A DNA stretch of 64,000 bases, taken from assembly GCA_012729315.1 (NCBI GenBank), contig JAAYDI010000013.1, forward strand, positions 62,001 through 126,000. The letters are read 5' to 3'. The notes beneath the pieces are model-generated. The model ran no database searches and had not been told where the DNA came from. It saw only the letters and a program-made list of their open reading frames with translations. Origin of the DNA: Planctomycetaceae bacterium (GTDB taxonomy: Bacteria; Planctomycetota; Planctomycetia; Pirellulales; Pirellulaceae). Both the position numbers and the translations under genes were made by a program. Shown here piece after piece: positions 41,215 to 53,926 of this stretch (the first letter of the stretch is position 1; each line of letters opens with the position of its first letter).

Positions 41215-43686
41215 TCAATTGAGGGGCCGGACGCGGATGTGGCGATAGGCGACCGGGCCGTGGTCACCCTGGAACATGAGCGGCCCGCGCGGCGCTTCGC
41301 GGTTCCGCAGGCTGCCGCCCGTGGGCCCCTGGACTTCGACGTCCTTCTGGATCACCACGCCGTTCAACACCACCTCTTCAAGGCAGGCCGGAGCCGTCTT
41401 GTTGCCTGCCGCGTCGAAGCGCGGCGCGCGGTAGCGGATCCGGAAGCTCTGCCACTCGCCCGGCGCCCGGCAGGCCTGAACGCTCGGCGCGGCCGCACTG
41501 TAGATGGCCCCCATGTCACCCTGCGTCAGCGTCTCGCGGCCGAAGCTGTCGTAGATCTGGATCTCATACTCACCCATGATGTAGATCCCCGAATTCGATC
41601 CGCGCGGGACCATCACCTCCACCTCGACCACCGCGTCGCCGAACTCCAGTTCGCTGTACAGATCGTGCCCGCCCCGCTGGGCGTTGATAAGCTCGTTGCC
41701 CGCCGGATCGACCACCAGTTCCCGCGGATCATCGGGGGCGAGCGACGCCGTCCCGACCTGCCAATACCCCCCCGCGTCCCCTTTGACGCGCCAGCCGTCC
41801 AGGTTCCGGCCATTAAACAGGTCGAGCACCGCGCCGAGCGACGCGCCGTGGCCGCCGTAAAACCAGTCCGCCGGCAGGATTTTGAGTTGCAGCGAGTGCC
41901 CGCCCTGGTAGTTGAAGTACGTGAGGAACGCCTGCTGGCCCACCCAGGTCACGGCCGGATACGCCCAGGCGTCCCCCGGCGCCTCTTCGATGTTGCGGAA
42001 GTTCTCCCAAGTCGTCCCGGCATCCCGCGAGATCGCCGCCGTCAGCGGCGTACGGTTCCGGTTCTGCGCGTCGGCCGTGTCCGGGTTGTGGTTCCAGATC
42101 GCCAGCAGATCGCCCGTGATCGGCACGTGGGAGATCGACACCGGCGCTGCGGTTCCGACAAGCTGTGACAATACGGGGTCACTCCACGTTTCACCGCCGT
42201 CGGCTGAATAGCTCTGGAACTGCCCCCCGTCCCCGGTCCGCATCAGCATCAGGACCCGGCCGTCCCCCAGCTCGATGCAGGCCGGCTCCCACGAGCCGTG
42301 GCCCGGGTTGACGCGCTGCGACTCGCGCCACGTCTGGCCGTCGTCGTCCGAGAGGTAGCAGTAGCTGTCGCCGTTCTCCCAGGCCTCGAGCAGAATCCGT
42401 CCCGACGCCAGGCGGGTGGAGCGGCCGTTGGTCAGCCCCGTGTACTTGCCGTCCGCGCTGAGTTGTTGGGGCGCGCCGAACGTCCGCCCCTCGTCGCTCG
42501 ACACCCGCATCATCACGCGGCAGTCGCTGCTCTCCGTATTCTTCTGGCAATAGAACAGTGCGATCCGGCCATCGGTGAGCCGCAGGAAGTTCACCTCCAT
42601 CACGTTGCAGCCGCCGTCATTCTCGACCAGCGTGTACTTGTCGCCCCACGTCCATCCGCCGTCGCGCGACACCTTGCCGGAGATCCGTGCGGGACCGTGG
42701 TCGGCTCCGTCGCCCGCATAGAACTCGGTCCAGCCCAGCAGCAGCGTGCCGTCCTGGAGCGGGATGATCGCCGCTTCGCTGTTGCGCGGATTGTCCGGTC
42801 CGACCGGCACGACCACCGTTTTGAAAGGCTCGTACGCCGGCGCCTGGCCGATCGGCCACAGCTCCCAGCGACGCACCACAACCTCGGCAAACTCACTCTG
42901 CAGCAGAATCTGGCCGGCACAGTGCGAGGCGTCGAAGCCTGCATTCACGACGACACCGTTGACCAGGATGACGATGCGCCCCTGGTCGCAGATGACGTCC
43001 ATGCGGGTCCATTCGCCGAACGGGCTCTCAACATCCTCCCGGCCGCGGAATCCTCGCGTATCGGCCCAGTCGACATCGCGCCCGTACCAGTTGACGCGGC
43101 CGCTCGTGAAAGTCCGCGTCGCGCCCCCCTTCTGCCAGACCGCTTCGCCGTCCCGGTCGGTGGTGACTTCCGCCGACAGCGAGATGGGGATCGGCGTCCC
43201 GTCCGACTGGTTGCCGGGCACGATAATGAAATCGCCCGTGCCCCCCTCGATCATCTGCGCTTCAAAGCCGGCCATGAAGACATTGCCGTACCCTCCATCG
43301 GGCCCGACACAGTGCACGATGATGCCGCTGTCACGAGCACAGTTCTCGCGGCCGCCCCAGGTGCGTTCGCCCCATCGGAATTCGATGACCAGATGGTAAT
43401 CGCGATACGCTTCCTTCGTGCGAATGTAGCCCCCTCCGTCACCCGAGATGTGCAGCATGCCGTCCTGCACGGAGAACACGTTCCGAGGATCCTCATACTT
43501 GGTATCGCTCAGCCAGGTCACCAGATTCGACAGATCGCTGCCGTTGAACAGGCGGATCACTTCGTGGCCCGGGCTGCGGGGCTCGGACACATCCCCTTCC
43601 TGTGCCGCGGCCGGCGCGGTGAGGGCGACAAACATAAGCGTGGCGGCCGGGAACAGCATCTTCAGCGTCATTCGTGTGATGGGCAC
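41215..43686 (-). CDS. Secreted DUF1080-sialidase-DUF1080 protein
   Basis: 823 residues from the GTG at 43686, chosen for AGGAG 8 bp upstream; ATGs at 43671 and 43659 are alternatives. A signal peptide (LKMLFPAATLMFVALTAPAAA) precedes a first 3-keto-disaccharide hydrolase (DUF1080) domain (about 35-270, FNGSDLSNLVTWL and GEWTRMDVICD). A BNR sialidase propeller (about 285-605) contains Asp-box turns such as SRDGGWTW, SSDEGRTF, SDDDGQTW, SADGGETW and SRDAGTTW. A second DUF1080 domain (about 620-823, FNGRNLDGW and IYDSFGRETL) closes the protein. The three-part layout suggests an extracellular glycan-degrading enzyme with jelly-roll modules on both sides. It lies downstream of the sugar operon on the same strand but has its own -10 candidate. 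Confidence 0.85.
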   Translation of the reverse strand: MPITRMTLKMLFPAATLMFVALTAPAAAQEGDVSEPRSPGHEVIRLFNGSDLSNLVTWLSDTKYEDPRNVFSVQDGMLHISGDGGGYIRTKEAYRDYHLVIEFRWGERTWGGRENCARDSGIIVHCVGPDGGYGNVFMAGFEAQMIEGGTGDFIIVPGNQSDGTPIPISLSAEVTTDRDGEAVWQKGGATRTFTSGRVNWYGRDVDWADTRGFRGREDVESPFGEWTRMDVICDQGRIVILVNGVVVNAGFDASHCAGQILLQSEFAEVVVRRWELWPIGQAPAYEPFKTVVVPVGPDNPRNSEAAIIPLQDGTLLLGWTEFYAGDGADHGPARISGKVSRDGGWTWGDKYTLVENDGGCNVMEVNFLRLTDGRIALFYCQKNTESSDCRVMMRVSSDEGRTFGAPQQLSADGKYTGLTNGRSTRLASGRILLEAWENGDSYCYLSDDDGQTWRESQRVNPGHGSWEPACIELGDGRVLMLMRTGDGGQFQSYSADGGETWSDPVLSQLVGTAAPVSISHVPITGDLLAIWNHNPDTADAQNRNRTPLTAAISRDAGTTWENFRNIEEAPGDAWAYPAVTWVGQQAFLTYFNYQGGHSLQLKILPADWFYGGHGASLGAVLDLFNGRNLDGWRVKGDAGGYWQVGTASLAPDDPRELVVDPAGNELINAQRGGHDLYSELEFGDAVVEVEVMVPRGSNSGIYIMGEYEIQIYDSFGRETLTQGDMGAIYSAAAPSVQACRAPGEWQSFRIRYRAPRFDAAGNKTAPACLEEVVLNGVVIQKDVEVQGPTGGSLRNREAPRGPLMFQGDHGPVAYRHIRVRPLN

Positions 43687-43906: not shown

Positions 43907-45064
43907 TCAAGCCCGATCTTGGCAGACCGGCTCGACACTCTGGTTGGCGTGCGACGCCAGGGCCGCCGTGAACAGGTGGTGACTGCGCGTCACCTCGTCG
44001 AGTGTGACGCAGCCGGCAAAGCGTGCCGGAGGCTGACCGGTGACCAGTTCGTGCAGAAACGCGGCCCACATCTGCAGGATGGCGTCCGAGAAGCCAAACT
44101 CGAAAATCGCCCCGGAAACGGTCTGGAACGCAGTCTCGTAGCCGGTCTGCACCTGCCCCCACACCGGCTCACCGCCCGCGTACTCCAGCAGTTCCAGCCG
44201 CTTCGGGTCGCGCGTCGAGAAGCGGACGGAGGTGCGGGTACCCAGGATCTCGAGGTACCACGTGTTCTTCTCTCCAGGCGCGATGCGCTGCATCTTGAAC
44301 GTCATGGGAAACGACTCGCCGGTGGCCGGATCACATCCCTCGCACAGCAACGTCGCATTGTCCCACGTATCGCATGGAACCTGCGCGCCGTGGCCATCCG
44401 GACGCTGCGGCACGATGTTCGACAGCACGGCCCGCACGTTGCGGGGCTCCCAGCCCGCGCGAAACGGGACGGCGCACACGTGCATGCCCAGGTCACCCAG
44501 CACGCCGTACTGGCCGTTGAATTCGACGATACGTTTCCAGTTGATCGGTTTGTTCGGGTCCAGGTCGCTGGTGTGCAGGAACCCCGCATTGACCTCCAGG
44601 ACGCGACCGAAGGCGCGCCGCTCCAGCAAGGCAGCGATGCGTTGGACGGCCGGAAAGAACATGAACTGCGACGCGCAACGGACGAAGATGCCGGGATGCT
44701 GCGCGGCGCACTCGGCGATCGCCAGGTGGGCTGCCAGGTCGATCCCCACCGGCTTCTCGGCCATCACATGCTTGCCGGCCTGGATCGCCGCGCAGCACAC
44801 CTCCTGATGGAAATGATGCGGCACGGCCACATAGACGGCTTCCACCGCGGCGTTGGCCAGCAGGTCGCGGTAGTCCTGCGCATACTGGCCGATCGCCGGG
44901 AAATGCTGGCGAAACCAGTCGAACGCCGGACTGCGCCGGTTCGACACGGCGACAATCTCCGGGCGGGCTTCGGTGTGCAGCAGGTGGCACCAGCGTGCCG
45001 CAGCGCTGGCAAACTCGCGTCCCATCAGGCCGCATCCGATGACTCCAAAGCGAACGGTTCTCAT
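43907..45064 (-). CDS. Gfo/Idh/MocA family dehydrogenase (last gene of the sugar operon)
   Basis: 385 residues. The Rossmann motif is FGVIGCGLMGREFASA near the N-terminus, and the catalytic E-K-P motif is intact in HVMAEKPVGIDL. The C-terminal domain contains QYGVLGDLGMHVCAVPF and the substrate-side His. Members oxidise sugar or cyclitol hydroxyls with NAD(P), for example inositol 2-dehydrogenase. Its ATG overlaps the amidohydrolase stop by 4 bp, so the two are translationally coupled. Unlike the homologue at 34472 it keeps the usual catalytic lysine. Confidence 0.88.
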   Translation of the reverse strand: MRTVRFGVIGCGLMGREFASAAARWCHLLHTEARPEIVAVSNRRSPAFDWFRQHFPAIGQYAQDYRDLLANAAVEAVYVAVPHHFHQEVCCAAIQAGKHVMAEKPVGIDLAAHLAIAECAAQHPGIFVRCASQFMFFPAVQRIAALLERRAFGRVLEVNAGFLHTSDLDPNKPINWKRIVEFNGQYGVLGDLGMHVCAVPFRAGWEPRNVRAVLSNIVPQRPDGHGAQVPCDTWDNATLLCEGCDPATGESFPMTFKMQRIAPGEKNTWYLEILGTRTSVRFSTRDPKRLELLEYAGGEPVWGQVQTGYETAFQTVSGAIFEFGFSDAILQMWAAFLHELVTGQPPARFAGCVTLDEVTRSHHLFTAALASHANQSVEPVCQDRA

Positions 45065-46155
45065 GACATCTGCTCCCCCAGACGCTGTCGTTTATGGGAC
45101 ATGACACCGGCCATCAGACGCGCCGCGTTGTCGTGGAAGATGGCGGCGACTGCCGAGCGGTCGCGGATCCCCAGTTCCTCGCACGCCTGCCGGATGGCAC
45201 GGATGTCTTCGTACATCATGAGTGTGTAGCGTGCTTCCGTCTCCGGCGACTCGCGGTCGGTGTTGAAGTGGAACGGGTAGCTGGTCCGGTTGATGTACGT
45301 CCGGCCACGATACTGGCGGCGGCCACGCATGTAGAAGACCGGGTTGTCCGACCCGTACAGCAGCCGCTGCGTGCCAAGGTGCTCAAGCGCGATGCGATGC
45401 GATGCCGGATTCAACACCGCTGAGGTGTCGAAGTACAAGCCGTCGTCGTCGGCAAACTGGGGCAGCGCCTCCAGCGCGTGCGGCTCCGTGTAACAGCGGC
45501 CGAGGTGGGCAAGCACGATCACGATGTGCGGGTACCGGCGGCGGATCTCGCGCACTTCCCGGACATTGTCCGCGTGCCCCAGACGATCGGCCTTGGGCAC
45601 ATGCAGCGTGACCCACGCGTGCCGATCGTCCAAGACCTCCAGGATCTGGTGCGGCAGGAACTCGAAAATGCTGGCCTCCAGGTGGGCATCGCGTGTGGTT
45701 TCATCGGGACTGATCAGGTTGTAGTAGGGTTTCACACCAATCACACTCGGCGCATCCAGCAAGGCCGCCACGTCGTCTGGCGTCCATTGCGGCCGCACCG
45801 CCGGCAGGCTGTACCAGCCCCGGCCCGGGCATTCCGCCTGCAGGTACCGGTTGCAGCCTGCGATGTCGTAAGCCAGATCGGGCGTGCCCAGCACCAGGCA
45901 GCTGACCTCCCGGCCCGGAAAGACCGTCCGGTGGCAGTGTTCGGCCGTCGGCGCATCGATCGGCTCGAACACCTCGTTGACCCAATACTGCCGCCGCATC
46001 GCCTCCGTCATCGGCCGCAGGCGCAGCCGCGGATCCGTGACATGCGTGTGGGCATCGATGATCCGCGGCGGCAGCCAATCGGCCAGCTGCTCCGTCCAGA
46101 ACGCCTGGTCCACGGCGGTGTATGTCCAGTGAAAGTGGAGCGGAATGTCCGTCAT
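45061..46155 (-). CDS. Amidohydrolase-superfamily TIM-barrel hydrolase
   Basis: 364 residues from the ATG at 46155, which overlaps the kinase stop by 3 bp. The metal-binding start RIIDAHTHVTD is seen at about residues 30-40. Later strands carry VTLHVPK and VLAHLGRC (metal His residues) and the Asp in LLYGSDNPVFY. The overall pattern fits the metal-dependent TIM-barrel group (amidohydrolase family 2, including lactonases, decarboxylases and uronate-isomerase-like enzymes). In this operon a lactonase or an isomerase role would make sense, but the sequence does not decide. Coupled by 4-bp overlap to the dehydrogenase that follows. Confidence 0.82.
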   Translation of the reverse strand: MTDIPLHFHWTYTAVDQAFWTEQLADWLPPRIIDAHTHVTDPRLRLRPMTEAMRRQYWVNEVFEPIDAPTAEHCHRTVFPGREVSCLVLGTPDLAYDIAGCNRYLQAECPGRGWYSLPAVRPQWTPDDVAALLDAPSVIGVKPYYNLISPDETTRDAHLEASIFEFLPHQILEVLDDRHAWVTLHVPKADRLGHADNVREVREIRRRYPHIVIVLAHLGRCYTEPHALEALPQFADDDGLYFDTSAVLNPASHRIALEHLGTQRLLYGSDNPVFYMRGRRQYRGRTYINRTSYPFHFNTDRESPETEARYTLMMYEDIRAIRQACEELGIRDRSAVAAIFHDNAARLMAGVMSHKRQRLGEQMS

Positions 46156-47618
46156 GATGATGGTCTCGCATCCTGCCGCGGCAGCGCGCACAGGTATTCC
46201 TGGTATTGATCTCGATAGAACGCCGCGTGCTCGCCCGGCTCCAGTTGCCGCGCGGGGGGCACCATCGCCTCCGACAGTTCGGCCAGCGACGTGTGCGGTT
46301 CCACCAGACCGCGCGCCAGAATCGCAGCGCCCAGCAGACTCGCTTCACCGGAACTCAGGCAGGCCAGCGGCAGGCCGGTCACGTCAGCCAGAATCCGGGT
46401 GGTCACCTGGCTCAACGCCGCCCCGCCCCCCATCACCAGACGCGCGACGGGCCAGCCGGAGGCGGGCAGGAACTCCAGGTAACGCGTCAGTTCGAAGGCC
46501 AACCCTTCCACGACGGCGCGCAGCACGTCGGCAGGACGATGCGCGAGTTGCAGCCCGGCCAGGCGCCCGTGCGTGCCGGACGCGAGCCCGGAGACGCCGG
46601 CCGAAACCAGGAACGGCCAACAGCGGACGCCTGCGCTCCCCGGTTGCGTGGACTCCAGCAGCGTTTCCACCGCCGCGCCGTCCAGGTTCCCCAGCCCCAT
46701 CAGGTTCAAGGCCCAGGTGAATGCCGACCCGCCATTGACCAGCGAGAGAATCTGGCCGCACAGCCCGTCCACAACATGATGGCAGACGAACGCTTCATCG
46801 ATCACCGGCGCAGCCAGGCGGTCGTGGACCGCCAGTAGCACCCAGGCGGTCCCGGTGCCGACCATGACGGTCCCGGAGCGCACCGCGCCGGTGCCGAGCG
46901 CCGACGCGTACTGGTCGTGAATCGCCGCCGACACCGGCGTGCCGGCACGCAGGCCAGTCTGCCGCGCGATGTCCGCCCGCAGCCCCCCCGCCGCTTCGCG
47001 TGCCGAGATCAGCTCGGGCAACTGACCTGCGTCCAACCGCAGCCTTCGCAGCAGTTCCGGATCGTAGTCGCGCAGCCAGGGATTGAGCAGTACCGTCAGG
47101 CTGCACGAGGTCATGTCGTGCGCGCCGCGTCCGCACAGCCGCCCCACGATGATGTCGCCGACGAAGCCCACGCGGTTCGGCGGCGCCAGCAGCCCCGGTT
47201 GCTCCTGGTGCAGACGCAGCAACTGGCCCACGCTCACGCCGGAAACCCCCCGGCCCAGCCGCTCCAGCAGCCACGACCGCCCCAGTGCGGCCAGCAGCGC
47301 GTGGTCGAACGGCCGCCCGCGCTGGTCGAGCCAACTGATCACATGCCCTACCGGGTGGCCGTCCGGCGCGAGCACCTGCATCGCGCCCCCCTGGCTGGAG
47401 ACGCCAATCGCGTCAATGCCGGACGGATCGACTGCGCCGGCCACCTGCTGCAGCACCGCCAGCGTCGCCTGCTCGATCGCATCGAGATCCTGTTCCACAC
47501 CGCCACCGGCGGAGTGCAGCAACGGGACAGGTGCCGCCGCCTGTGCCAGCGGCTGGCCAGCGCTGCCGGTCACCAGCGCCTTGATGTTGGTCGTGCCCAG
47601 ATCGAGGCCCAGAAACAT
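46152..47618 (-). CDS. FGGY-family carbohydrate kinase
   Basis: 488 residues with the FGGY/actin-ATPase fold. The phosphate-1 loop is FLGLDLGTTNIKALV at the N-terminus, the phosphate-2 region is GTVMVGTGTAWVLLA, and the adenosine motif is LVMGGGAALSQVTTRI. Substrate-side segments SSQGGAMQVLAPDG and SWLDQRG resemble xylulokinase and gluconokinase. The active-site Asp is likely in HDQYASALG. It would phosphorylate the keto-sugar made by the neighbouring isomerase. It begins 3 bp after the isomerase stop and overlaps the amidohydrolase start. Confidence 0.9.
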   Translation of the reverse strand: MFLGLDLGTTNIKALVTGSAGQPLAQAAAPVPLLHSAGGGVEQDLDAIEQATLAVLQQVAGAVDPSGIDAIGVSSQGGAMQVLAPDGHPVGHVISWLDQRGRPFDHALLAALGRSWLLERLGRGVSGVSVGQLLRLHQEQPGLLAPPNRVGFVGDIIVGRLCGRGAHDMTSCSLTVLLNPWLRDYDPELLRRLRLDAGQLPELISAREAAGGLRADIARQTGLRAGTPVSAAIHDQYASALGTGAVRSGTVMVGTGTAWVLLAVHDRLAAPVIDEAFVCHHVVDGLCGQILSLVNGGSAFTWALNLMGLGNLDGAAVETLLESTQPGSAGVRCWPFLVSAGVSGLASGTHGRLAGLQLAHRPADVLRAVVEGLAFELTRYLEFLPASGWPVARLVMGGGAALSQVTTRILADVTGLPLACLSSGEASLLGAAILARGLVEPHTSLAELSEAMVPPARQLEPGEHAAFYRDQYQEYLCALPRQDARPSS

Positions 47619-47621
47619 CGC

Positions 47622-49028
47622 TCAGATCTCGCAATAATCCGCGTCGATCAATTCCGCAGCCAGACGCAGCCGGCGGCGGGCGTCACCGAAACACACGGCG
47701 TTGTGATGCGGGCCACCAGACTGTGCGTACCGGGTCAGGAACTCCCGCACCGGCATGTGCGGCCGGATCTTGAAATGCGGGACGCAGAACCCGGAAAGCG
47801 GACCGTAGTCTTCAATCGCCACCGGCGCGGCAATGATACGCCACCTGCCGCCCGGCCCGAGCGCCAACACAGTGAACGTCGCCGGGCCCGGCTCGAGGCA
47901 GGTGACCAGCGCCAGCTGGCGGTCGCGCGTGCGCGTGATCGGCGCGGGCCGCGCGACCAGCGGGATCTTCCGGTCGCGCCGCGCCATCCCGGCGTTGGCT
48001 TCACCCATGTGACTCATGAACAGGCTTTCCCCGGCAAAGTCGATCGTGAAGATCTCGGAAAACGTCGCCGGCGGGTTGAGCCAGTTGAAGAACGCCGTGG
48101 CGGCGGCAGCGATCAGATCCCCTTCACCGCCGAAACCGATCCCCTCGGCCATCAGGCGGCTCGCCGCCACAAACGGCAGCGACGACGTACGCTCGTCATC
48201 GCCGAACGCCGTGAACTGGTAGGTCAAGGCGTTCAGCGCGTGGTCGTGAACCATGCCGCGTACCGCCAGTTCGGCCCGCGCGGTCGCCTCCAGATCGGCC
48301 GCGGTCACATCCGCGGCGACGTCGTACTCGTGCCGGTATGCGTCGACCAACCGGGCCACCTCCGCGCCCCCGGCCGCGGCGGCGCGGCAGATGTAATCCT
48401 CCACCGTCAGGTTCGTCCAGGAACAGCCGAGCGTCGCGGCCAGATGGGTCGTGTCGAGCGCAAAGTCGCCCATGCCCGGGAACGGATAGCCCAGCATGCC
48501 GATGCGCGCTGAACGCAGCCGGCGGACCGCAGCGGCAGCGGCGCAAAAGTCGCCCAGCTCCGCCAGGCCCGCGGCATCGTTGGTCAGACTCGTCACGTAC
48601 TGGAAAGGAACGCCGCTGCGCACCAGTACGCTGGCCAGATCCTGCGTGCCGTGCACGCCGTGGTTGTCGACCATCTGCTCCTGCGAAAACGACTGGTCCA
48701 CCGCAGGCAGTTCCTGCGTGTTCCAGATCATGCACGGCAACCGCGTGCGTGTGAGGGCCGGCAGCGCCAGCTGGCTGGGTGAGTACGTGAGCATCACCAC
48801 CACCAGCGCATCGGCGCCGGCCTGCTCGAACCCCGCCACCGTCGACTCGATGTCAGACCGCCGGAACACCGCCGCATCGAACAGCACATCGGCGTGCGGT
48901 TCGACTGCGGGGATCAGCACCTGCCGGAGCCACGCTTCGCGCGCTGCGCGCAGCCCCGGCGTCAGCGTCTCGTAAAGCTCCAGTGTCAGCGCGAGCAGAC
49001 CAACCTTCGGACGCGCACTCGTGTTCAT
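47622..49028 (-). CDS. L-arabinose/L-fucose isomerase-like protein
   Basis: 468 residues. The N-terminal part has the Rossmann-like substrate domain (LRAAREAWLRQVLIPAVEP, ALVVVMLTYSPSQLALPAL and MIWNTQELPAVD). The central domain contains candidates for the metal ligands of the AraA/FucI fold: a Glu in GFGGEGDLIAAA, the Asp/Glu stretch TIDFAGESLFMSHMGEAN and a His in SGGPHHNAVCFGD near the C-terminus. AraA and FucI interconvert aldoses and ketoses with Mn. It is divergent enough that the substrate is open. It is overlapped 4 bp by the aminotransferase gene upstream and lies 3 bp before the FGGY kinase, so isomerisation followed by phosphorylation is the expected logic. Confidence 0.82.
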   Translation of the reverse strand: MNTSARPKVGLLALTLELYETLTPGLRAAREAWLRQVLIPAVEPHADVLFDAAVFRRSDIESTVAGFEQAGADALVVVMLTYSPSQLALPALTRTRLPCMIWNTQELPAVDQSFSQEQMVDNHGVHGTQDLASVLVRSGVPFQYVTSLTNDAAGLAELGDFCAAAAAVRRLRSARIGMLGYPFPGMGDFALDTTHLAATLGCSWTNLTVEDYICRAAAAGGAEVARLVDAYRHEYDVAADVTAADLEATARAELAVRGMVHDHALNALTYQFTAFGDDERTSSLPFVAASRLMAEGIGFGGEGDLIAAAATAFFNWLNPPATFSEIFTIDFAGESLFMSHMGEANAGMARRDRKIPLVARPAPITRTRDRQLALVTCLEPGPATFTVLALGPGGRWRIIAAPVAIEDYGPLSGFCVPHFKIRPHMPVREFLTRYAQSGGPHHNAVCFGDARRRLRLAAELIDADYCEI

Positions 49029-50410
49029 CGCGTGCCTTTCTTGAGCAGTTTTCGGAACCGGCGGAGCAGGAAATCGACGATCTGTTCGTCAGCCAACAGC
49101 CCCAGCTTGGTAAGCACCGTGCGGTGCCCTTCGTGGTAGGCGTGGACGCGCGTCCAGAGCCCCTCGTCCAGCAACCGGCGCTGGAACCCCAGGGCGTCCT
49201 CCACCTGATGGAACTTCAGACCGGCCAGGTAGCCGCGCCCGTGCGCCGCCTGCAGCACCTGCGGGAAGTCGGCAACCAGCGACGCGAACCCGTCCTCAAT
49301 GTACTGCCCCAGTGCCCGGATCCTGGCCGCGTGCCGCTGGATGAGATCCAGCGAACAGAGCGCCACGAAGGCCGGCATCGCTGCCGATCCGTTGGTACTG
49401 ATCGCATCGTACTGCTCCAGCACGTCGTCCCGCTGATGCATCAGTACCCCCGACAGCGGATGGAAGCCCGCCGTCAACCCTTTGCCGAGCACCACCAGGT
49501 CCGGTTCCAGCCCCAGTGTGCGGTATTCCAGCACGTCGGGCTGCCAGAACCCCGTCTGGATCTCATCCAGACACATCAGCGCGCCGCTTGCGCGGCAGCA
49601 CTGCTGGGCCAGCTGCAGATAGTCGCGCTCCACCGCGATCGCCTCGCGGTTCATCATCACAGGCTCAGCCCAGAAGCCGGCGATGCGCCCCCCATACGTA
49701 CGGAATGTCTTCTCGAGTGAACGCGCGTCGTTCGGCTGCAGCGTGATGACCTTGAAACGCGGCGTCAGTCCGGGCCACATGCCGCGCATGAACTGGGGCA
49801 ACATGTCGCTGCCGTGGTAGTTGCCCTCCAGCACGACGATGATCGGGGTCGTCTTCTTGTCCCGTGTCCGTGCAAACACGCACAACTGGATCTTCAACGC
49901 GGCGGCACAGGCGACCGAGCCGGTACAGACGCCCAGGTGCACGGTGTCCAGCGGGTCGGTTGTGCCGGGAGCGTTTCCGAACTCGACCAGCCGGTGTGCC
50001 AGCCATTTGAGCGGCGATTGCGGGATATTGGAGTGGTTATCCCAGACGACGCCCGCCCGCGACGCGGCAGTGACTGCCGCACACAGCGCGGGATGGTTGT
50101 AACCCCACAGCATCTGGTAATGGCCGGCGGTACAGTCGAGAAACAGCTTGCGCTGCTCGGTCAGATAGAAGAGTCCCCGTCCCACCAGGAAATCATCGCT
50201 CGGCCCCTGCTGGCTGCCGCCAAACGAGTCCTGGAGTGCCGATTTGTCGATCGGGCGGAATGCCGGCACGCTGCGGACCGTCCGGCCGACCTGTCGCAAC
50301 AGGCCGGGCGCGGTTTCCGCATCCAGAAACTTCAGGCCGGCCTGCATTGCCGCCGCAATGCGAGGTCCGTCAGGACCCAGGATTCGCTCGAGCGAAAAAC
50401 GACTCGTCAT
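49025..50410 (-). CDS. Class III PLP-dependent aminotransferase
   Basis: 461 residues of the fold-type I, class III group (ornithine/acetylornithine/GSA-aminomutase-like). Visible signatures: YQMLWGYNHPAL for the N-terminal domain, LEGNYHGSD, FWAEPVMM, LDEIQTGFWQPD (Asp contacting the PLP ring nitrogen) and LVVLGKGLTAGFHPLSG with the Schiff-base lysine. It swaps an amino group between an amino acid and a keto or amino substrate. Its presence in a sugar operon, tightly coupled (4-bp overlap) to an isomerase, points to an amino-sugar, amino-cyclitol or amino-sugar-acid substrate. This is inference from context. Confidence 0.88.
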   Translation of the reverse strand: MTSRFSLERILGPDGPRIAAAMQAGLKFLDAETAPGLLRQVGRTVRSVPAFRPIDKSALQDSFGGSQQGPSDDFLVGRGLFYLTEQRKLFLDCTAGHYQMLWGYNHPALCAAVTAASRAGVVWDNHSNIPQSPLKWLAHRLVEFGNAPGTTDPLDTVHLGVCTGSVACAAALKIQLCVFARTRDKKTTPIIVVLEGNYHGSDMLPQFMRGMWPGLTPRFKVITLQPNDARSLEKTFRTYGGRIAGFWAEPVMMNREAIAVERDYLQLAQQCCRASGALMCLDEIQTGFWQPDVLEYRTLGLEPDLVVLGKGLTAGFHPLSGVLMHQRDDVLEQYDAISTNGSAAMPAFVALCSLDLIQRHAARIRALGQYIEDGFASLVADFPQVLQAAHGRGYLAGLKFHQVEDALGFQRRLLDEGLWTRVHAYHEGHRTVLTKLGLLADEQIVDFLLRRFRKLLKKGTR

Positions 50411-50473
50411 GGTACAAAGCTGCCCATTCTATTGCGTGGTTGAACGGTTGTTCCCGGCGCGGCAGATCCTGCA

Positions 50474-52093
50474 TCACGGCGCCGCTGCACCGGGCCCCCA
50501 AAACTGGAACCAGATCACATAAGCGTACAGTACGACCATGATGCCGATGAAGATGCACCACCACAGAAACAGGTTCCGCAATCCTCGATTCCGGGCGCGT
50601 TCCGACTCCGGCAACCGCGCCGCACGCCAGGACCAGATGATCCCCTTGATCTTCTCCGGATCGGGCGGCCTGGTCACCAGCGACAGCAGCACCAACAGGA
50701 GCATCGAGACGATCCACACCAGGAACGTCCGGTTCAGGAAATTCCGGAACGGCATGAGCCAGTGGACGTACACCGACAGGTAGTACTGCATCAGCGCGGT
50801 GTAGGGGAAGGCGAACAGCAGCACGAACGTGGCCGCCCACGCGGTGGTGCGTTTCCACAGCACTCCCAGCAGGAAGACCGCCGAGATAGGGGCGGCGACC
50901 CACGCGCCAATGTCCTGAATCAGAATGAAAACCCCAAGGTTCCGGCGACTGAACCAGATGGCCAGCAGGGTGGCGATGACCAGAATCACAAACGCACTGA
51001 GCCGGCCCACCAGCACCAGGTGCCGTTCCGACCGGTGCCGGCCCAGCACCGGCTTGTACAGGTCCATCGTGAAGACCGTGCTGCACGAGTTGAGCACCGA
51101 ACTGATGTGCGAGAGCATCCCGCTGGCCAGCCCTGCCATCACAATGCCGCTCAAGCCCAACGGCACCAGGTTGCGCACCAGCGTGGGAAACGCCTGATCC
51201 GGATCCTCCAGCCCCGGGTAGAGCCGAAAGGCCACGATCCCCGGGACCACTACCAGCAGCGGCAGGACGATCTTCATGAACCCGGCAAAGACCACCCCCA
51301 TCCGCGCATCCCACTCGCTGCGCGCACCCAGACACCGCTGCACAATGAACTGGTTCGTGCAGTTGTACCAGATGCCCACCGAGATCGACAAAGTCCAGAC
51401 CCCGAACCACGGGAAATCCGGATCCGTGGCGGGATAGATGAACTTGAATTTTTCTGGCGCAGCGAGCATCAGGTTATGCAGGCCGCCCACTTCGTGCAGC
51501 CCCATGACCGTCACAATCAGTCCCCCCAGCATCATCACAATGAACTGGAGGAAGTCTGTCCAGGCCACCGACACCAGACCGCCATAGATGGTGTAGCTGC
51601 CCGCCAGCACCGCCAGCCCCACAATCGTCACCGTCTCGTTCCAGCCGAACATGCCGTGCATCGCCTTGCCCCCGGCCAGCATCACTACGGCCATCTGGGC
51701 CACAATCCACAGCACCAGCGAGCAGACGGCGAACAGGTAACGGCAGGTGGCGTTGTAGCGCCGCTCCAGGAACTCGGGCATCGTGAAGAGCCCCCCCCGG
51801 ATGTAGAACGGGAGGAAGATCCAGATCAGCGCGGAGAACGTCAACCAGTTCCCCCATTCCCACTGGGCCACGACGAACCCCACGGCATACGCGATGCCGA
51901 TCATCCCGATGAAGTGCTCCGTACTGATATTGGCAGCGATGATCGAGCCGCCGATGGCGTACCACGGCAGTCCTTCCCCGGCCAGGAAGTAGCCCCGCGT
52001 GTCTGCCGCCCGGCGCCGCGCCACCCAGATTCCCAAAGTGATGTTCAGGATCAGATAGAGCGTGAACAGGATGAAATCGATGTGGTGCGTCAT
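50474..52093 (-). CDS. Sodium:solute symporter (SSS family)
   Basis: 539 residues with about 14 hydrophobic helices. The start DFILFTLYLILNITLGIWVARR, the helix-3 region GGSIIAANISTEHFIGMIG and the Na-binding helix LASGMLSHISSVLNSCSTVFTMDLYKP are characteristic of the SGLT/PutP family. The glycan-type members take up glucose, galactose, myo-inositol or sialic acid with Na. It is the first intact gene of the operon, 63 bp before the aminotransferase. The ATG overlaps the stop of a 48-residue PfkB fragment by 3 bp (ATGA), so its translation is probably coupled to that leader; no own ribosome-binding site is evident. Confidence 0.9.
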   Translation of the reverse strand: MTHHIDFILFTLYLILNITLGIWVARRRAADTRGYFLAGEGLPWYAIGGSIIAANISTEHFIGMIGIAYAVGFVVAQWEWGNWLTFSALIWIFLPFYIRGGLFTMPEFLERRYNATCRYLFAVCSLVLWIVAQMAVVMLAGGKAMHGMFGWNETVTIVGLAVLAGSYTIYGGLVSVAWTDFLQFIVMMLGGLIVTVMGLHEVGGLHNLMLAAPEKFKFIYPATDPDFPWFGVWTLSISVGIWYNCTNQFIVQRCLGARSEWDARMGVVFAGFMKIVLPLLVVVPGIVAFRLYPGLEDPDQAFPTLVRNLVPLGLSGIVMAGLASGMLSHISSVLNSCSTVFTMDLYKPVLGRHRSERHLVLVGRLSAFVILVIATLLAIWFSRRNLGVFILIQDIGAWVAAPISAVFLLGVLWKRTTAWAATFVLLFAFPYTALMQYYLSVYVHWLMPFRNFLNRTFLVWIVSMLLLVLLSLVTRPPDPEKIKGIIWSWRAARLPESERARNRGLRNLFLWWCIFIGIMVVLYAYVIWFQFWGPGAAAP

Positions 52094-52236
52094 GATGGAA
52101 CTCGAGCCCTCTGCTTAACCAGCGCGGCTGACCAGTGCGGCACATTCTCCACCGGAAGCCGCGGCACGTAGCTGATCAGGTCGATGTTACAGGCCCCGAC
52201 GACAGTGATCTTCGGTACCTCAGGCGCGCGCTCCAT
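52090..52236 (-). pseudogene. N-terminal remnant of a PfkB/ribokinase-family sugar kinase
   Basis: A 48-codon frame starting at the ATG at 52236 with a perfect AGGAG 8 bp upstream. Residues 9-28, KITVVGACNIDLISYVPRLP, match the beginning of ribokinase-type kinases (strand 1, then the N-I-D substrate-binding triad). After that the sequence no longer follows the family, which would continue with a G-E-T and G-G-K-G-N-A region. The frame ends in TGA overlapping the symporter ATG. The gene body seems to have been deleted, leaving the translation start. It may now serve only as a coupled leader for the symporter. It is too short to be a kinase. Confidence 0.7.
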
Positions 52237-52241
52237 GGGAT

Positions 52242-53926
52242 CTACTCCTGAATTACCCCAAGTCGTGCTGAGTCACGTGCTGATGCGGCGGGCTCAGCCG
52301 CCGCGCCGTTCTGCTGCCGCCACCACTCGGCCGCCTGCTCGGCAGTCCACAGCCGGGCACAGTCACAGGCCGACAGCGCGCTGCCCAGACTCGCCGCGTC
52401 CGGAAACCGGTTCGCGGGGAGCTTCTCCAGGCACCGCACGATGACGCGTTCCAGATCGGGCGGAACGGCTGGATTGACCTGCGCCGGCGCCGGCACGGGA
52501 TCCCGGGCATGCGCCGTCAGGATGTCCCACACCGTCTCGCCGTCGAACGGCGGTCTGCCTGTGACGAGGAAGTACGCCACGGCGCCCAGCGAGTAGATGT
52601 CGCTTCGCGCGTCCAGCGTGTGGTAGGAGTTGACTTGCTCAGGAGACATGTACAGCGGTGAGCCGGCAAACGTCCCGGGTTGCGTCAACAGCGGGTCCGC
52701 GTGCGCCGTCGTCACCTGCGTGCGGACAAGTCCGAAATCCAGGATCTTGGCTACGTCGTACATTCCGCCCCGTTCACTGGCAAAGATTTGGCCGGCTTGA
52801 CGTCCCGGTGGATCAGCCCCTTGGCATGCGCCTCGCGCAACGCCCAGCATGTCTGACGCAGCAGGTAAACCGCCCGCTCCGGCGGCAATGGGCCGTACCG
52901 CTGCACCAGCTCCTCCAGACTCATCCCGGGCAGCAGTTCCATGACGTAGTAGAACGTGCCGTCATCCGTATGTCCGTAGTCGTAGATCTCGACCGTATTC
53001 CAGTGGGTCAGCCCGGCAGTCGCCTGTACCTCCCGTTCGAAGCGGGCGAGGGCCTCCGCATCGGTCGACTTGTCCCGCTTGATAATCTTGATGGCACAGG
53101 CGCGTTTGAGCAGCTGATGCTCGGCCTGGTAGACCTCTCCCATGCCACCGGCGCCGAGCTTCGTCTTCAGCACATACTGGCCCCACTGCTTGGCTCGGAA
53201 CGCTTCCTGCCGGATCGCATTGATCGTGTATGTGCCGAATACCGCCACCAGGACGGCAACCAGCGAACCCGGAATGTAGCTGTTCATTTGGTCCATGGCG
53301 AACGCCGCCGCGACGCCAGGCACCTGCGACCGCAGCCACAACAGCAGCACCTGCGGCACGCAGGCGGTCGGCAGCAGAACGGCCAGCGCCCGCTGCCAGG
53401 TGTTGGGCATCAGAGTGCCATACGTGAGAATCAGAATCGACCACGCGGCCATGTACGTGTGCTCGGCCGCGACCAGCGACACCGTGTCCCCCGCTCGGGC
53501 AAAGCCGACGATCCGCGTCCCCATCATCAACAGCAACTGGACAACAAGCGCGCCGAAGAGCGTGGCTTCGAACCACCGCAGCTGGCGCAGCGACAGGGAA
53601 CGACGGCTCCGCAGGATCAGGAAGCCCACAACAAAGATACACAGAATGACCGCCCGGACACCGACCAGCGGCGCATAGTCCGCAAACAGATTGTCGACAA
53701 AGGCCAGCGTCAGGGCGACCATCAGGATCAAGGCTACAGCGGTCAGGCGAGCGCGCAGCAATCCGGCAGTCTCGCCGGAGAAATGCGGACGCGTCCCCGT
53801 CACAAAGCCGACGCGCGGCCCCGTGAGGTCTACCGGCGACTCCGGACGGCACCGGGCAGCAACCGCCGACGCACTGTCAATCGTCGGTTCAATGCCGTGT
53901 GGCCGCATACGGACGCTCGCAATCAC
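52242..53926 (-). pseudogene. Membrane Ser/Thr protein kinase interrupted by a 1-nt frameshift
   Basis: Two frames together make one kinase of about 560 residues. The first frame (53926 to 52751) starts at a GTG and has about six or seven hydrophobic helices in its first 240 residues. It then encodes the kinase N-lobe (LGAGGMGEVYQAEH, CAIKII with the catalytic Lys) and reaches the catalytic loop IHRDVKPA. There the codon for the expected Asn lacks one base (around 52788), and reading drifts to a stop. In the next frame the match resumes with IFASERGGMYDVAKILDFGLVRT, MSPEQV and the rest of the C-lobe to 52242. Every catalytic residue is present across the two frames. It is either a recent pseudogene or a sequencing error. 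N-terminal membrane helices with C-terminal kinase is the reverse of the common bacterial order. Confidence 0.85.

Follow-up and report, generated by a model that had tools for sequence, protein, structure and literature searches.

Which kind of compound is broken down by a gene set that combines a symporter, an isomerase and a sugar kinase with an aminotransferase, an amidohydrolase and a dehydrogenase is the question raised by this locus. Herein, we analysed the locus within a window of 64,000 nucleotides, the whole stretch of DNA under study, from a Planctomycetota genome of 5.47 Mb.

Architecture of the six-gene operon

Gene calling and Pfam searches found six intact genes on the minus strand, in the order symporter, aminotransferase, isomerase, kinase, amidohydrolase and dehydrogenase that the first-pass annotation had given. 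SSF (50474..52093, 539 aa; Pfam SSF, 5.8e-69) is a sodium/solute symporter and predicted importer. It is followed by AMT, a divergent class III PLP aminotransferase (49025..50410, 461 aa; Pfam Aminotran_3, 5.2e-28), ISO, an AraA-like aldose-ketose isomerase (47622..49028, 468 aa), KIN, an FGGY sugar kinase (46152..47618, 488 aa; Pfam FGGY_N/FGGY_C), AMID, a metal-dependent TIM-barrel enzyme of the Amidohydro_2 family (45061..46155, 364 aa; Pfam Amidohydro_2, 1e-11), and MOCA, an NAD(P)-dependent dehydrogenase of the Gfo/Idh/MocA family (43907..45064, 385 aa; Pfam GFO_IDH_MocA, 3.6e-19). A gap of 63 bp separates SSF from AMT, and the remaining junctions measure -4 bp (AMT-ISO), +3 bp (ISO-KIN), -4 bp (KIN-AMID) and -4 bp (AMID-MOCA); the earlier count of four tight junctions in five was exact. 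The symporter gene had been drawn up to 52236 and has to be shortened, as it starts at 52093 and 52099..52236 on the minus strand is a separate short reading frame (MERAPEVPKITVVGACNIDLISYVPRLP...). Read by eye, this frame resembles the N-terminus of PfkB/ribokinase proteins; Pfam found no match in it, and it is a possible PfkB/ribokinase remnant just upstream of the operon. Next to it, at 52242-53926 on the minus strand, a break inside the HRDVKPxN loop divides a gene for a Ser/Thr protein kinase into two frames, caused by either a mutational frameshift or an assembly error.

On the other side, SIAL (41215..43671, minus strand; Pfam 3keto-disac_hyd, BNR_2) is co-directional and lies 235 bp downstream of MOCA. 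It has a signal-like N-terminus and a BNR sialidase-like domain between two DUF1080 (3-keto-disaccharide hydrolase) domains. The gene is not conserved in most related loci, its membership of the operon is uncertain, and it was left out of the core parts. BNR-like proteins seem to be encoded near loci L078 and L110 too. Promoter and terminator scans gave no signal above shuffled sequences. The absence of a regulator, remarked on earlier, is true within the window, and DeoR regulators are present in relatives.

Conservation of the gene cluster

Searching genome contigs with ISO yielded 44 loci, 42 of which showed 52-75% identity to the window protein. The loci came mostly from Planctomycetota and Verrucomicrobiota, and also from Kiritimatiellota, Armatimonadota and one Bacillota bin. 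Relatives of the cluster ranged from Planctomycetota and Verrucomicrobia of lakes and the sea to a bacterium of the human gut. At distances of up to 10 kb from ISO, KIN was present at 36 of the 42 loci, AMID at 30, a class III aminotransferase at 21, a DhnA/LacD-type aldolase likewise at 21, an SSF-type symporter at 14, a MOCA orthologue at 11 and a DeoR regulator at 9, and these counts are lower bounds because many contigs are short. The closest loci in order and content were those of Verrucomicrobia L049, L043, L077 and L036, with SSF copies in the same cluster that were 80% identical in L049 and 76% identical in L036. The neighbourhood check across Planctomycetota and Verrucomicrobiota proposed in the first-pass annotation thus found the set conserved far beyond close relatives, so that the refuting condition named there did not apply.

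For a stricter count, loci with 4 kb on each side of ISO were regarded as well-flanked (n = 23). A class III aminotransferase was encoded at 15 of them, and none was nearby at the other eight. At the host's density of five such genes in a genome of 5.47 Mb, a random 20-kb stretch would contain one in about 2% of cases; compared with this expectation, 15/23 corresponds to a binomial P of about 1e-20, the loci being taken as independent and the gene density as that of the host. Where well-flanked loci carried MOCA, the aminotransferase was present in every case (8/8).

Reverse searches with AMID and AMT covered 392 genomes of Planctomycetota. Four AMID copies of at least 55% identity were found, one of them in the host, and each lay beside ISO; weaker AMID relatives (G145, G336, G324, G219, G235 and G098) shared a contig with an ISO relative of 32-37% identity. 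AMT relatives (E below 1e-35) were found in four genomes besides the host, on the ISO contig in G284, G145 and G235, and in G114, the assembly of which consists of small contigs. The same partners are kept in the wider family. As AMT and AMID relatives are nearly always found with ISO, the three genes look like an old functional unit. The linkage is conserved in both search directions, which supports a single catabolic operon and the earlier claim that its products work together. Plasmid records yielded no AMID relatives. A rhizobial "arabinose isomerase" (25% identity) was rejected as a member of the cluster, since it lies beside ABC transporter genes and the other partners are absent.

Enzyme identities and catalytic residues

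Catalytic residues are intact in ISO, AMT, AMID and MOCA. In the alignment, E302, E325, H340 and H442 of ISO correspond to E306, E333, H350 and H450 of Escherichia coli AraA, and all four are invariant. Identity to E. coli AraA is only 21%, and ISO scores 98.9 bits against the NCBIfam AraA equivalog, whose cut-off is 622, so it is called AraA-like and not filed as AraA. From the original label "AraA/FucI-like", the AraA part is retained (Pfam AraA_central and Arabinose_Iso_C) and the FucI part is dropped. KIN is closest to xylulokinases, its best score being that for XylB (214.4 bits; NCBIfam cut-off 380.25). Xylulokinases phosphorylate C5, and an aldolase is then not needed.

AMT reaches 98.3 bits with Aminotran_3 (cut-off 30.5), keeps the PLP lysine K310 and the ring-nitrogen aspartate D282, and has the class III fold in a fold search. 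By domain, residues and fold it is a class III aminotransferase with predicted transaminase activity; class III enzymes also include mutases, lyases and decarboxylases. Its nearest named class III relatives are mostly terminal-amine enzymes.

The metal site of AMID is complete, comprising the HxH histidines H36 and H38 together with H185, H217 and D270, all invariant. Its AlphaFold2 model (pLDDT 94.5) matched the group of IDCase, ACMSD, LigW and LigI with Z scores of about 19-21, all tied, and the top structures, which differ in activity, lay within Z 1-2 of each other at 12-18% identity. Because the matches are tied, no single reaction can be named, and fold comparison favoured none of the lactonase, decarboxylase and C-C hydrolase activities over the others. 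R264, R277, R279 and R280 are nearly invariant and could point to an anionic substrate.

MOCA keeps the motifs EKP and GDLGMH. By sequence its nearest solved structures are 6a3f, 4h3v and 5ya8, the last of which is named scyllo-inositol/L-glucose dehydrogenase. It fits none of the named NCBIfam equivalogs tested, with 54.2 bits against 355 for inositol 2-dehydrogenase (IolG) and 88.2 against 650 for levoglucosan dehydrogenase. The operon enzymes fall below the curated cut-offs for the arabinose, xylose and inositol families tested.

Exchange of enzymes within the cluster

The same slots of the cluster are filled by three aminotransferase subfamilies (the window type, AT5 and AT19), two AMID types and two kinase types. 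The presence of three aminotransferase subfamilies in one slot suggests that this chemistry is required. Two unrelated aldolase families also share a slot, the DhnA type (21/42 loci), as in planctomycetes, and class II in Subdoligranulum variabile (L110). Such swapping between unrelated enzymes that catalyse one kind of reaction indicates the chemistry, namely deamination, carbonyl handling, isomerisation, phosphorylation and aldol cleavage.

In S. variabile (OY725846.1), the order is MocA, class II ketose-bisphosphate aldolase, FGGY kinase, ISO (32% identity), AT19-type aminotransferase (51% to AT19) and MOCA (49%), and the last two genes overlap by 4 bp; AMID was not found in this record. 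Locus L124 contains an FGGY kinase, DeoR, a NagA-like deacetylase (207 bits, just below the cut-off of 226), an AT5 aminotransferase, glutamate dehydrogenase, MOCA and a ceramidase-like gene. Here the aminotransferase, glutamate dehydrogenase and MOCA genes are nearly contiguous, with a gap of 684 bp before the aminotransferase. Planctomycete MOCA relatives that lack an ISO-type isomerase usually adjoin a DhnA-like aldolase, and at L128 (7735-12148, plus strand) a GntR regulator, a DhnA-like aldolase, MOCA, a D-lyxose isomerase and a PfkB kinase form an operon that belongs to a parallel pathway, having in common only MOCA and the logic.

Further genes were seen around the relatives. At L038 (17390-20175, plus strand), in a genome of the host's phylum, an MttB-family methyltransferase lies beside the aldolase and a second, sulfoquinovose-isomerase-like protein and kinase. 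Next to the cluster, genes for URO-D-like proteins and for GNAT acetyltransferases were seen repeatedly (L040, L045, L054, L066, L101 and L106). At L049 (4164-6908, plus strand), MBOAT and AlgX-like O-acetylation genes run with a 4-bp overlap into the symporter gene, and an MBOAT gene occurs near L046 too.

Proposed pathway and alternatives

The reading we favour, at about even confidence, is that these genes would form an operon for breaking down a small amino sugar, or an amine that becomes an aldose. We infer all reactions, their order and the substrate from gene content and homology. After Na+-coupled uptake by SSF, AMT would use a 2-oxo acid as acceptor of the amino group, leaving a carbonyl, and a plain sugar would result when MOCA reduces, or first oxidises, the same position; the order may also be reversed, with oxidation by MOCA coming first. 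ISO would then convert the aldose into a ketose, KIN would phosphorylate it, and an aldolase, encoded in the cluster in relatives, would cleave the ketose phosphate to yield DHAP and an aldehyde. The least certain step is that of AMID, which probably cleaves an N-acyl or a lactone bond by hydrolysis. The glutamate dehydrogenase of L124 fits the recycling of glutamate after transamination; judged from this one locus, it could regenerate 2-oxoglutarate and yield NAD(P)H usable by MOCA. The general logic of this amino-sugar model is moderately supported. In the pathway sketched by the first-pass annotation, uptake, deamination, isomerisation and phosphorylation hold in outline, whereas an oxidative direction of MOCA and ring opening are candidate steps. 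A wider proposal is a modular route, operating in Planctomycetota, Verrucomicrobiota and some gut Bacillota, in which a transaminase and a MocA reductase would turn an amino sugar into a plain sugar, glutamate dehydrogenase would complete the redox cycle, and isomerase-kinase-aldolase cleavage would follow; it is offered tentatively and seems rather doubtful at present. If it were true, a hydroxyl would take the place of an amine without any net redox cost.

The first-pass annotation had left the choice between an (amino-)sugar and a cyclitol. For an amino-cyclitol, AMT would convert an inosamine into an inosose, MOCA would oxidise it, AMID would open the ring, and ISO, KIN and the aldolase would finish the acyclic product. 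This series of dehydrogenase, hydrolase, isomerase, kinase and aldolase parallels inositol catabolism, MOCA is distantly related to inositol dehydrogenases, including the solved scyllo-inositol/L-glucose enzyme, and C-C hydrolases and decarboxylases belong to the fold group of AMID. A creatininase-family match occurs at L072, and a creatininase-family gene beside the cluster in L045 matches IolN at 78.8 bits, although this is far under the cut-off of 245. However, AraA-type isomerases act on aldoses, most of the nearest named class III relatives of AMT act on terminal amines, and neither an IolE-type dehydratase nor IolD was noticed in the clusters on non-systematic inspection. We consider the cyclitol little supported and quite improbable; the amino sugar fits better, because of the aldose-ketose isomerase fold, the DHAP-type aldolases, and the NagA-like deacetylase and glutamate dehydrogenase in relatives. 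The sugar might also carry no amino group, with the aminotransferase treating a side product or a late amino aldehyde, or recycling nitrogen. The eight well-flanked loci without an aminotransferase agree with this, as does the existence at L128 of a MOCA-aldolase-isomerase-kinase set that lacks one, but loci that have an aminotransferase gene often show it joined closely to ISO or MOCA (-4 bp in the window and L110), and the subfamily of AMT is specific to the cluster, which makes a neutral sugar unlikely in our view.

How the amino-sugar route would end in the host depends on the aldolase. The DhnA-type linked aldolase is absent from the window operon and has no relative in the host genome or in the genomes of the window-like loci L037, L039, L043, L049 and L077. 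That the search does work is seen from its matches in 30 other genomes. In the host and several window-like Verrucomicrobia, the last step must consequently fall to another enzyme. Elsewhere in the host genome there are three class II aldolase and two DeoC-family genes, and judging from these annotations a class II aldolase encoded outside the operon could serve the final cleavage. Alternatively, at least in the window-like group, the product of KIN would be a 5-phosphate and would pass straight into the pentose phosphate pathway without an aldolase step. The top score of KIN with XylB and the missing DhnA matches in these six genomes speak for such an end, but many other carriers have clustered aldolases of two families, and KIN is orthologous across the aldolase-bearing and aldolase-free groups (45-59% identity); we hold this ending to be improbable and retain cleavage by an aldolase.

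Origin and significance

In the tree, the window ISO groups with those of Verrucomicrobia L036 and L037 (support 98/92), and no close ISO was found in the sampled genomes of the host's family and order. Transfer between phyla is plausible from the tree and the patchy distribution, and gains no support from G+C content, by which the operon is not set apart (65.7% against 64.6%). If the amino-sugar reading is right, it would provide a way to degrade those amino sugars that are beyond deamination by NagB of the standard GlcNAc pathway, and would explain a recurrent unannotated gene set in little-studied aquatic bacteria. The five enzyme families can be tested together for substrates, and the related cluster in S. 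variabile opens growth and expression tests beyond planctomycetes.

Comparison with known systems

That this is not a textbook gene set, as suggested at the outset, agrees with our literature search, which found no described pathway with these six genes; no description of the set was found in open-licence PMC full texts, so the absence is weak evidence. A paper on FGGY kinases (PMC3245297) contained no matching gene context. The six genes apparently represent a conserved and undescribed breakdown route.

As in the L-arabinose operon (AraA, AraB), an AraA-fold isomerase with its catalytic residues is followed by an FGGY kinase, but the window operon lacks the AraD epimerase and has the aminotransferase, AMID and MOCA in addition. 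The L-fucose and L-rhamnose pathways likewise use an isomerase, an FGGY kinase and then, as in the operon's relatives, a DHAP aldolase; they differ in their isomerase and aldolase families, and the window has a nitrogen-removing step and no aldolase.

The inositol pathway comprises IolG, IolD/IolN, IolB, IolC and IolJ, with a Thermotoga variant of IolG/IolM/IolN. The order of functions, from a MocA dehydrogenase through a hydrolase, an isomerase and a kinase to an aldolase, is shared with it, whereas IolB and IolC are replaced by AraA-type and FGGY proteins, the aminotransferase is extra, and Pfam found no IolD/IolE or IolN in the window operon. Rhizopine (scyllo-inosamine) moc catabolism also combines an amino compound with a Gfo/Idh/MocA dehydrogenase, but in the window operon MocB, MocC and MocDE-like genes are absent, and their place is taken by a symporter and the pair of isomerase and kinase. 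The NagA/NagB pathway resembles the proposed one in that a sugar is deacetylated and loses its nitrogen, with the NagA-like protein in L124 as a counterpart, but nitrogen would leave here by transamination and not through the isomerase-deaminase NagB. By analogy with these systems, the operon may be regarded as a variant of isomerase-kinase-aldolase sugar catabolism with an added nitrogen-removing step.
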